DNA from: Arenimonas oryziterrae DSM 21050 = YC6267
GTDB taxonomy: Bacteria > Pseudomonadota > Gammaproteobacteria > Xanthomonadales > Xanthomonadaceae
Assembly (NCBI RefSeq): GCF_000420545.1
Contig: NZ_ATVD01000001.1
Coordinates: 186,001-250,000, forward strand
Length of the DNA: 64,000 nucleotides
Reading direction: 5' to 3'
Shown: positions 4,641-12,829 of the stretch, in pieces
Position numbering within the stretch: the stretch's first letter is position 1
Layout of the letters: every line of letters begins with the position of its first letter
Made by a program: the position numbers and the translations under genes
Notes under the pieces: model-generated
What the model was told of the DNA's origin: nothing
Seen by the model: only the letters and a program-made list of their open reading frames with translations
The model's database searches: none

Positions 4641-4665
4641 GGTCGCCAGCGAGCTGGCTCCTAAG
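4641..4665. repeat. REP unit between convergent genes
   Basis: Read on the minus strand this is TAGGAGC, ten bases, GCGACC. Its core GCCAGC-GA-GCTGGC is a perfect 6-bp hairpin. It begins 7 bp after the greB stop and ends 7 bp before the stop of the next, convergent gene. The same ends and spacing occur in the two REP units inside metG at 12419-12486, with a different but still self-complementary stem. Confidence 0.8.
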
Positions 4666-10729: not shown

Positions 10730-12829
10730 ATGAAACCCGCCCCCGCCCTCGTTACCACCGCCCTTCCCTACGCCAACGGCCCGCTGCACCTGGGCCACCT
10801 GGTCGGCTACATCCAGGCCGACATCTGGGTCCGCGCGCGCCGCCTGGCCGGCGGCGGCGTGCATTTCGTCTGCGCCGACGACGCCCACGGCACCCCGATC
10901 ATGCTCGCCGCGGAAAAGGCCGGGCAGACCCCGGAAGACTTCATCCGCGCGATCCAGGTCGGGCACGAGCGTGATTTTGCCGACTTCGGCGTCGCCTTCG
11001 ACCACTACCATTCGACGCATTCGGAAGAAAACCGCGCGCTCGCCACCCTGATCTACACGCGCCTGCGCGACGGCAGCCACGGCGAGAAGGTCATCGCCCG
11101 GCGTTCGATCCAGCAGTTGTTCGACCCGATCAAGCAGATGTTCCTGCCCGACCGCTACATCAAGGGCGAGTGCCCGAACTGCGGCAGCCCCGACCAGTAC
11201 GGCGACAACTGCGAAGTCTGTGGCAAGGCGTACTCGCCGACCGACCTGAAGAATCCGCGCTCGGTGGTCTCGGGCGCAACGCCGGAATTGCGCGACTCCG
11301 AGCATTATTTCTTCGAGCTCGGCAAGTTCGAAACCTTCCTGCGCAGCTGGCTGACCGGCGAAGTCGCGCACAGCTCGGTCAAGGCCAAGCTCGGCGAATG
11401 GCTCGAAGGCGGCTTGCGCGACTGGGACATTTCCCGCGACGCGCCGTATTTCGGCTTTCCCATTCCCGACGCACCCGGCAAGTTCTTCTATGTCTGGCTC
11501 GATGCGCCGATCGGCTATCTCGCCAGCTTCCGCGCGTACTGCGACGCCAACGGCGGCGATTTCGCCGCGTACACCGACGCCACGCGCAACGCCGCCGGCG
11601 AAACCGAGATGCATCATTTCCTCGGCAAGGACATCATCAATTTCCACGGCCTGTTCTGGCCGGCGATGCTGCACGGCGCCGGCTTCCGCACGCCGACCAA
11701 GCTGCACGTCAACGGCTACCTGATGGTGAACGGCGCGAAGATGTCGAAATCGCGCGGCACCTTCATCATGGCGCGTACCTTCCTGGACGTGGGGCTGAAC
11801 CCGGAGACGCTGCGCTATTACTTCGCCGCGAAATCCGGCGCGGGCGTCGACGATCTTGATCTCAACCTCGAGGACTACACGGCGCGCGTGAATGCCGACC
11901 TGGTCGGCAAGTTCGTCAACATCGCCAGTCGTTGCGCGGGCTTCATCGGCAAGCGCTTCGACGGTCGGCTCGCGGCAACGCTGCCGGACCCGCCGATGTA
12001 CGCCCGTTTCGCCGCTGCATTGCACGAGGTGCGCGATTTCTACGCTGCCGGCGAATTCAATCTGGCCATCCGCCACGTGATGACGCTCGCCGACGAAGCC
12101 AACCGCTACATCGACGAAAAGAAACCCTGGGTCATCGCCAAGCAGGAAGGCGCCGACGCCGAACTGCAGGCTGTCTGCTCGCAGGGCCTGAATCTGTTCC
12201 GCGTGCTCGCTGCCGGTCTCAAACCCGTGCTGCCGACCCTCTGCGCGCGTGCCGAAGCGTTCCTCAACGCGCCCGTCGCGCACTGGGACGACGTCGCGCA
12301 ACCACTGACCGCGCACGTGATCGCCCCGTACGAGCCCCTGCTCACCCGCATCGACCCCCAACAGATTGAAGCCATGATCGACGCCTCGAAAGAAACCCTC
12401 AAACCCGCCGATGCCGCCGTAGGAGCGACCCCGGTCGCGACCACGGCAGGCGTGCCGGCGGCTGTCGCGACCAAGGTCGCTCCTACAGGCACGGCGGGCG
12501 CGGTGATCGGCATCGACGACTTCGCCAAGCTCGACCTGCGCGTGGGCAAGGTGCTCGAGTGCGCCTTCGTCGAAGGCTCCGACAAGCTGCTGCGTTTCCG
12601 GCTCGATGCCGGCGACCTGGGCGAGCGGCAGATTTTCTCGGGCATCCGCGCCGGCTATCCGGAACCGGAAAAACTGCTCGGGCGCCACGTCGTGTTCATC
12701 GCCAATCTCGCACCGCGGAAGATGCGCTTCGGCGTCTCCGAAGGCATGATCCTGTCCGCGGGTGGCGACGACGGCCTGTTCCTGCTCGACGTCGATGCCG
12801 GTGCGATGGCGGGCATGACCGTCAAATAA
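10730..12829 (+). CDS. metG: Methionyl-tRNA synthetase with C-terminal tRNA-binding domain
   Basis: MetRS charges tRNA-Met with methionine. The 699-residue protein has the HIGH-type motif HLGH at 20-23, a zinc-binding knuckle CPNCG...CEVCG near 147-165, the KMSKS motif at 337-341, and a helical anticodon-binding domain to about 550. A C-terminal EMAPII-like tRNA-binding domain occupies about 595-699. Codons 564-586, between these last two domains, are encoded by two inverted REP units at 12419-12486 and give an Ala/Val/Thr/Pro-rich linker ([20 protein letters not shown] and three more residues). Both arms keep the frame. The REP is therefore translated, probably as a flexible linker. Confidence 0.97.
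12419..12486. repeat. Inverted pair of REP units inside the metG coding sequence
   Basis: The left unit (12419-12442) starts GTAGGAGCGACC and the right unit (12464-12486) ends GGTCGCTCCTAC; they are inverted copies that match at 21 of 23 positions, separated by 21 bp. Each unit holds its own hairpin: GCGACC-CC-GGTCGC on the left and GCGACC-AA-GGTCGC on the right. The ends TAGGAGC and GCGACC and the ten-base spacing are identical to the REP unit at 4641-4665. The element lies wholly within the reading frame of metG and adds no stop codon. Confidence 0.88.

Follow-up and report, generated by a model that had tools for sequence, protein, structure and literature searches.

How does a repeat that usually lies between genes come to encode part of an essential enzyme? 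Repetitive extragenic palindromic (REP) elements are "almost exclusively" intergenic according to the accessible text of PMC3686654, and seldom overlap coding regions according to that of PMC12306157. In the window, as we call the whole 64,000-nucleotide stretch of the Arenimonas oryziterrae genome analyzed here, an initial annotation made from the sequence had described two inverted REP units lying wholly within metG, the gene for methionyl-tRNA synthetase (MetRS), and had proposed their capture as a linker between two domains. The features concerned are as follows.

10730 to 12829, plus strand: metG, methionyl-tRNA synthetase, 699 aa (Pfam PF09334, PF19303, PF01588)
11996 to 12307, plus strand: anticodon-binding domain, residues 423 to 526, upstream of the linker (PF19303)
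12392 to 12529, plus strand: inter-domain linker, residues 555 to 600, pLDDT below 50
12419 to 12486, plus strand: inverted pair of REP units, metG codons 564 to 586 (sequence inspection)
12419 to 12442, plus strand: head REP unit, GTAG-GA-GCGACC-CC-GGTCGC-GACC, its GA shared with the flank of the palindrome
12443 to 12462, plus strand: spacer between head and tail unit, unlike the spacer of the pair on contig C2
12463 to 12486, minus strand: tail REP unit in inverted orientation, GTAG-GA-GCGACC-TT-GGTCGC-GACA
12536 to 12814, plus strand: C-terminal tRNA-binding domain, residues 603 to 695 (PF01588)
4641 to 4663, minus strand: degenerate REP-like hairpin, TAGGA-GCCAGC-TC-GCTGGC-GACC, a putative member of the GTAG REP family

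We confirmed that the in-frame pair is real. Codon 564 begins at position 12419, no stop interrupts the frame, and each unit contains the perfect hairpin GCGACC/GGTCGC. The letters of 12419 to 12486 are GTAGGAGCGACC-CC-GGTCGCGACC ... GTCGCGACC-AA-GGTCGCTCCTAC; positions 12419 to 12441 pair with 12464 to 12486 at 21 of 23 places, as had been claimed, and the inverted repeat as a whole has 33-nt arms that are 82% complementary. Pfam divides MetG into catalytic, anticodon-binding, and C-terminal tRNA-binding domains, and the element encodes residues 564 to 586 between the last two. In an AlphaFold2 model built from 20 aligned MetRS sequences, residues 555 to 600 have pLDDT values below 50, which places the element centrally within a linker predicted to be disordered.

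Both units show the GT(A/G)G head, GA, and palindrome of GTAG-type REPs. This layout was described for the REP/RAYT systems of Xanthomonas and Pseudomonas, whose Xanthomonas examples start with GTAGGAGCGC (PMC2817692); a RAYT gene in the host genome is a further likeness. In the accessible text of that paper REPs are handled as extragenic, whereas the metG pair is coding. An extragenic location, which the metG pair lacks, is usual for the class but does not define it, and intragenic members are on record in the accessible text of PMC3733652. As an intragenic REP, the metG pair is typical in that the whole element lies in frame, in a real gene, with domains on either side.

The REP pattern occurred once in the window and in none of 100 shuffles. 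The shorter motif TAGGAGC-N10-GCGACC was found twice (in metG and on the minus strand at 4641 to 4663) and was not expected at all, as judged from 100 shuffles, so that the claim of a signal beyond chance held. The kinship proposed for the second place stood only in part: it shares this motif but has its own stem, GCCAGC/GCTGGC, and TTAG replacing GTAG. Under the loose motif TAGGAGCGACC with 2 mismatches, for which there were 10 matches against 17.2 expected, the place is unremarkable.

The host genome (3.09 Mb in 25 contigs) turned out to be poor in such repeats, contrary to the many further copies that had been predicted. A strict GTAG-unit pattern found five units: two in metG, two paired at C2:427190-427257, and one alone at C3:134899; allowing 3 mismatches added four degenerate places. 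Between genes at C7:9776-9822 there is one more inverted GTAG pair, with stems of another type. The open frame directly downstream of it is presumably atpG. The 23-mer of metG recurs with 0 to 1 mismatches between genes, with no match for the reversed-pattern control, and it is the C2 pair that shows the motif to exist outside metG: its stems are identical to those of the metG pair and its spacer differs. With one same-stem pair, one other-stem pair, and one single unit, the genomic repetition expected of a GTAG REP is present only weakly. The scarcity of copies means that the metG case is not that of a REP-rich genome spilling into its genes. An M20-family peptidase gene, which we take to be dapE, uses the TAG of the C2 pair as its stop codon. 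In the accessible text of PMC3733652, GTAG REPs often supply a stop codon, and the C2 pair matches this habit.

Two Y1-transposase genes are present in the host genome. The gene product encoded at C2:709847 scored 123.8 bits against the NCBIfam RAYT model NF047646 (cut-off, 80), and the second scored 66.8 bits, below the cut-off. Judged by this model, the class of mobilizer is present. The RAYT gene is flanked by GTGGGAGCGG... units (GTGGGAGCGGGCC and GTGGGAGCGGCC), the stems of which are unlike those of metG, and a RAYT cognate to the metG subtype was not found among the two genes. Nor was a live source of the metG stem type seen in the host genome, where only one other intact pair exists. 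Upstream of the RAYT gene (L009), we also noticed three tandem 44-bp units starting with GTGGGAGCGGGCCTGACCGCGATGC, plus an inverted unit.

We compared the metG linkers of 173 genomes, comprising 149 of the family (that of the window included), 21 further ones of the genus or family, and 3 from other families. One linker cut by a contig end (L186, G132) was left out, leaving 172, as were G010, which offered the metG start only, and the metG matches of 21 genomes from other families. Linkers were scored as mismatches to GTNGGAGNGNCTTCAGNCNCGA minus matched stem pairs, with a threshold of -1 or better. A REP unit was present in 27 of the 172 linkers, that of the window included, versus 1 of 3,440 codon-shuffled linkers. 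The 27 represent ten genera by genus code, and nine belong to the genus of the window, for which 26 linkers were available (the window counted). Their stems differ (GCGGC/GCCGC, GGGGC/GCCCC, GGGAC/GTCCC, GCGAC/GTCGC, and others), and a linker may contain a pair, a head only, or a tail only. Related metG genes either lack the segment or have a different REP there, and the linkers read do not share one sequence; capture as an inter-domain linker is supported by this, together with the metG-type unit between genes elsewhere in the same genome and the place of the segment between Pfam domains in a predicted disordered stretch.

Among 80 named loci, which overlap the unnamed ones (identical linkers included) and were kept out of the counts, 8 scored -1 or below. 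They are Arenimonas donghaensis (L201), Arenimonas sp. SCN 70-307 (L204), an Arenimonas MAG (L250), Pseudoxanthomonas yeongjuensis (L209), P. wuyuanensis (L208), P. helianthi (L217), a Lysobacter MAG (L256), and Luteimonas sp. 8-5 (L239). A record titled Bacillus subtilis SK7B5 (L246) encodes a MetRS 71% identical to that of the window, as in Stenotrophomonas, and is likely contaminated or mislabelled.

Linkers averaged 74.4 residues in the 17 genes with a full pair and 66.1 in the 145 without a REP by score, a difference smaller than the 21 to 25 residues of a REP pair. Pure addition of length by the pair is therefore unsupported by these means. In REP-less genes, the scored linker region spans 46 to 108 residues.

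A REP unit offers two or three stop-free phases. The open phases of a common head read VGAASAAK or RSGFSRE, and those of a common tail read FAAEAAP or SRLKPLL. In metG, each of the 19 scored heads uses the VGA phase, and each of the 25 tails uses the APT phase. Outside metG, five inter-domain heads (IcmF, SucB, AceF twice, and Lpd; see below) likewise read in the VGA phase. We estimate that the heads would agree by chance about once in 500 cases, if ten events were independent and the two phases equally likely. The simplest explanation of this bias is that a flexible linker lets insertions read in the small-residue phase survive.

How special metG is can be judged from REPs in other genes. Stretches of 400 kb each from G015 and G078 contained 60 REP clusters (14 and 46), of which 6 and 15, respectively, were spanned by an open frame with at least 60 residues before and at least 20 after the cluster. 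Pfam was run on 27 of 28 spanning frames, the remaining one crossing a stretch border, and found domains on both sides only in metG and IcmF, a fused isobutyryl-CoA mutase. In TilS and a cytochrome c assembly protein, domains lie only downstream of the REP, which therefore probably precedes the true start. About 2 of 60 REP clusters thus lie between protein domains, compared to 27 of 172 metG linkers that are occupied. The IcmF gene of G015 (L285:2160-5915; NCBIfam, 1660.5 bits, cut-off 1500) has its REP pair between the MeaB and mutase domains, and the tail reads TKVPPT.

As a yardstick, E2 loci were taken from 15 genomes picked for being REP rich and carrying a metG REP; 14 of 44 matches, each being the third E2-like gene in its genome, were left out. 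A REP lay within the gene at 3 of 30 E2 loci (SucB once and AceF twice), plus one neighboring Lpd, in all cases between Pfam domains. NCBIfam scores were 552.6 bits for SucB of G063 (cut-off, 378.65), 605.2 and 650.1 bits for AceF of G083 and G106 (cut-off, 552.1), and 402.3 bits for Lpd of G188 (cut-off, 408.8), the frame of which is cut by the stretch end. The SucB head falls at residue 111, flanked by the lipoyl (28 to 100) and E3-binding (144 to 174) domains, and the Lpd head is at 117, between the lipoyl and reductase domains. The AceF heads, at 275 and 235, lie between the E3-binding and catalytic domains; in these two genera (L338 and L352; G083 and G106), the head occupies the same site directly before the catalytic domain. 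The notion that metG is the sole gene with a REP was rejected on account of IcmF, SucB, AceF, and Lpd, and the metG linker is a favored place among several.

Not counted, since these frames may not be real genes, were REPs in upstream frames of the E2 loci L343, L344, and L346 and beside infB; some of the frames read other phases. Within infB itself, taken as a control, a REP inside the ORF was seen at 0 of 15 loci, a result of little weight because much of the long N-terminal linker fell outside the fetched flank. Downstream of infB, at L354, L359, and L361, REP pairs lie directly before a gene, presumably truB, and at L359 its frame runs up through the REP. An upstream frame of the L359 type may explain why truB is listed as an intragenic-REP gene in the accessible text of PMC3733652.

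The distribution of REPs was further followed on a tree of MetG. It was a quick tree from about 230 columns without the linker, with several long branches. The REP label requires 18 changes on it, versus a mean of 25.4 and a minimum of 22 in 300 shuffles, and 10 changes are forced by well-supported branches alone; these changes cannot separate gains from losses. Sister rows differ in the REP (G023/G004, G020/G021, and G106/G173), and G088 differs from G119 despite identity of the two in the flanking residues that entered the tree. The row nearest to MetG of the window (G016; support, 85) has another stem type and a tail only. REP-less sisters carry unrelated linkers, with no clean empty site seen among the metG genes compared. 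Repeated capture is a simpler reading of this pattern than gene conversion overwriting an ancient insert.

Repeat load was measured as the number of exact TTCAG-loop units in the 149 family genomes, of which 55 had any (reversed-pattern control, 0). At least 10 units were present in 35 of 148 family genomes. A metG REP occurred in 15 of the 35 genomes with at least 10 units versus 4 of the 113 with fewer (Fisher P = 5e-8, kinship ignored). Tree-independent pairs gave, on average, 4 to 5 in the expected direction and 0.2 to 0.4 in the opposite one; since the median P value was 0.125, the link between load and metG REP is only suggestive after correction for relatedness. The genome of the window is one of the four low-count exceptions, and its units escape the TTCAG pattern because their loops are not TTCA.

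We propose that an inverted GTAG REP pair entered the region of metG between the anticodon-binding and C-terminal tRNA-binding domains, probably by means of a RAYT-type transposase, and stayed as an in-frame, disordered stretch under a phase filter that acts across the family. We give this reading a probability of roughly 80%. Counting against it are the single other intact pair of this stem type in the genome, the differing stems around the RAYT gene, the small length difference between linkers with and without a pair, and, in G020, the minority standing of the metG tail type. The pair would have been retained because its open frame reads as a disordered stretch of 23 small-residue-rich amino acids, presumably translated and nearly neutral for the enzyme. 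The MetRS linker appears to tolerate nearly any soluble, flexible peptide, so that insertions would survive there and be purged elsewhere. Selection would keep the VGA.../...APT phase, rich in Ala, Val, Thr, and Pro, and presumably remove the other open phases (RSGFSRE and SRLKPLL). The same filter, acting on the metG linker family-wide and on other inter-domain linkers, would let linkers turn over through gain and loss of intergenic repeats.

This pattern might instead descend from a single ancient insertion in the ancestor of the family, which later lineages retained or lost, while gene conversion with the REP pool of each genome altered its stems. Parsimony is blind to gain versus loss, the label is clustered on the tree, and the metG type makes up 10 of 32 units in G003 and is common among the listed units of G026, all of which would suit such a history. 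However, linkers differ from one another in stem, loop, spacer, number of units, and offset relative to the conserved helix, REP-less sisters have unrelated ones, and G016, the nearest row, carries a tail alone, of another stem type. In G020, moreover, the metG tail type is in the minority (2 of 13 listed units), and AceF, SucB, Lpd, and IcmF show the same thing as metG. We consider a single old insertion unlikely. The one-phase reading of all heads and tails, and the similar inter-domain peptides of the other four proteins, could also reflect a specific role of the linker, for example in offering tRNA to the C-terminal domain, with REP peptides selected as better linkers. Tolerance accounts for the phase equally well, and linker sequence and length vary widely among genes without a REP, which makes a specific role quite improbable.

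The hairpin could itself be the object of selection, as a DNA site for gyrase or another protein or as an mRNA stem that slows ribosomes between domains and aids folding, with the peptide as a by-product. Folded as RNA, the 68-nt element forms a single long stem (-49.3 kcal/mol; z, -6.05; equaled in stability by none of 200 shuffles), and stems mostly stay matched while their type differs between genera. In the REP-poor G034, the metG pair accounts for 2 of 8 exact units. Matched stems could thus reflect selection on the hairpin, but whole units drawn from the repeat pool of the genome would arrive with matched stems in any case, and our scan, by rewarding intact stems, biases the view of their retention. 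A REP is absent from 145 of 172 linkers, among them those of close sisters, and we regard selection on the hairpin as a very improbable cause. A chance Ala-rich coding patch, palindromic by accident, would be favored by the G+C-rich codons of Ala, Val, Thr, and Gly; the intergenic copies of the 23-mer and the codon-shuffle control rule it out for practical purposes. Capture of a mobile repeat pair, filtered by phase, is the reading that we retain.

If intergenic palindromes of the Lysobacteraceae are more generally a renewable linker material, for MetRS, the pyruvate/oxoglutarate dehydrogenase E2 component, Lpd, and IcmF, used in the small-residue frame only and replaced on a species time scale, linkers of essential enzymes would be replaced by mobile DNA on that time scale. 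This extension is tentative, and we place it somewhat below even odds. The metG locus itself is a clean case of noncoding mobile repeats turned into protein sequence in an essential, well-understood enzyme, and it cautions annotators that REPs are not always extragenic. Recurrence in many lineages and a measurable phase bias make the filter on surviving insertions directly testable.

Palindromic elements of Rickettsia were reportedly described by Ogata et al. in 2000. They lie in frame in genes of conserved proteins, and the gmk product with such an insert was translated and active, as stated in the accessible text of PMC2229807 and PMC10969869. They differ from the metG REP in their length of 105 to 146 bp, in their unrelated host, and in occupying many genes instead of one recurrent linker. 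The closest precedent is PMC3733652, and the following holds for its accessible text. Intragenic GTAG and CGTC REPs were reported there in several species in 2013, which means that REP capture in genes is not new as a kind. The two other inverted pairs of the host genome do lie between genes, as the initial view of REPs had it. More than half of the intragenic inserts were dimers or grouped repeats coding for 20 to 30 residues, and different REPs occupied about the same recB site in two Xanthomonas species. Neutral insertion in flexible linkers or loops was proposed, with changed activity suspected for repair proteins. Like the metG pair, these REPs are GTAG-headed palindromes inside real genes, including tRNA synthetases of X. 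oryzae, E. litoralis, and S. alaskensis. The main text does not contain the word "methionyl" or state which tRNA synthetases are meant, and its supplementary gene list may include metG. Neither a reading-phase rule nor family-wide recurrence at one linker appears in that text, unlike in the metG case. A search of the open-access literature, supplements outside its scope, found no paper joining methionyl-tRNA synthetase with "repetitive extragenic palindromic" and, for intragenic REPs, linkers, and tRNA synthetases together, only PMC3733652. Family-wide recurrence at the linker of one essential enzyme and the reading-phase rule are new beyond this known literature.

The metG linker is also open to unrelated intergenic repeats, which favors a tolerant site over some special feature of REPs as the cause. 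In L105 (G148) and L187 (G099), it contains GGATGGGTAGAGCGCAGCGARACCCATC, of the palindromic family GGATGGGTAGAGCGCAGCGAAACCCATC, read as GWVERSETHQ; this repeat has 50 copies in G148 and 172 in G099 (at most 2 mismatches; control, 0). L127 contains CCCTCCCCCGCAAGCGGGGGAGGG, with related forms in L188 and L189 (three genomes of g42), read as PPPQPSPASGGGS. The pattern has 42, 12, and 19 sites in G111, G134, and G157, respectively, at no more than 1 mismatch, and a related palindrome has 20 sites in the genome of the window. Judged by eye only, L168, L098, and other metG linkers contain AATCCC- or CCAATCAC-like repeats. The long linker of L238, from a Thermomonas MAG, encodes a VRGEPVEPRT-like peptide, which may be a translated intergenic palindrome of other bacteria. 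G106 has a separate 23-nt REP family (GTAGGAGCGGGCCTTGCCCGCGA and GTAGGAGCGCCCCTTGGGCGCGA) of 452 units, partly in regular tandem arrays.
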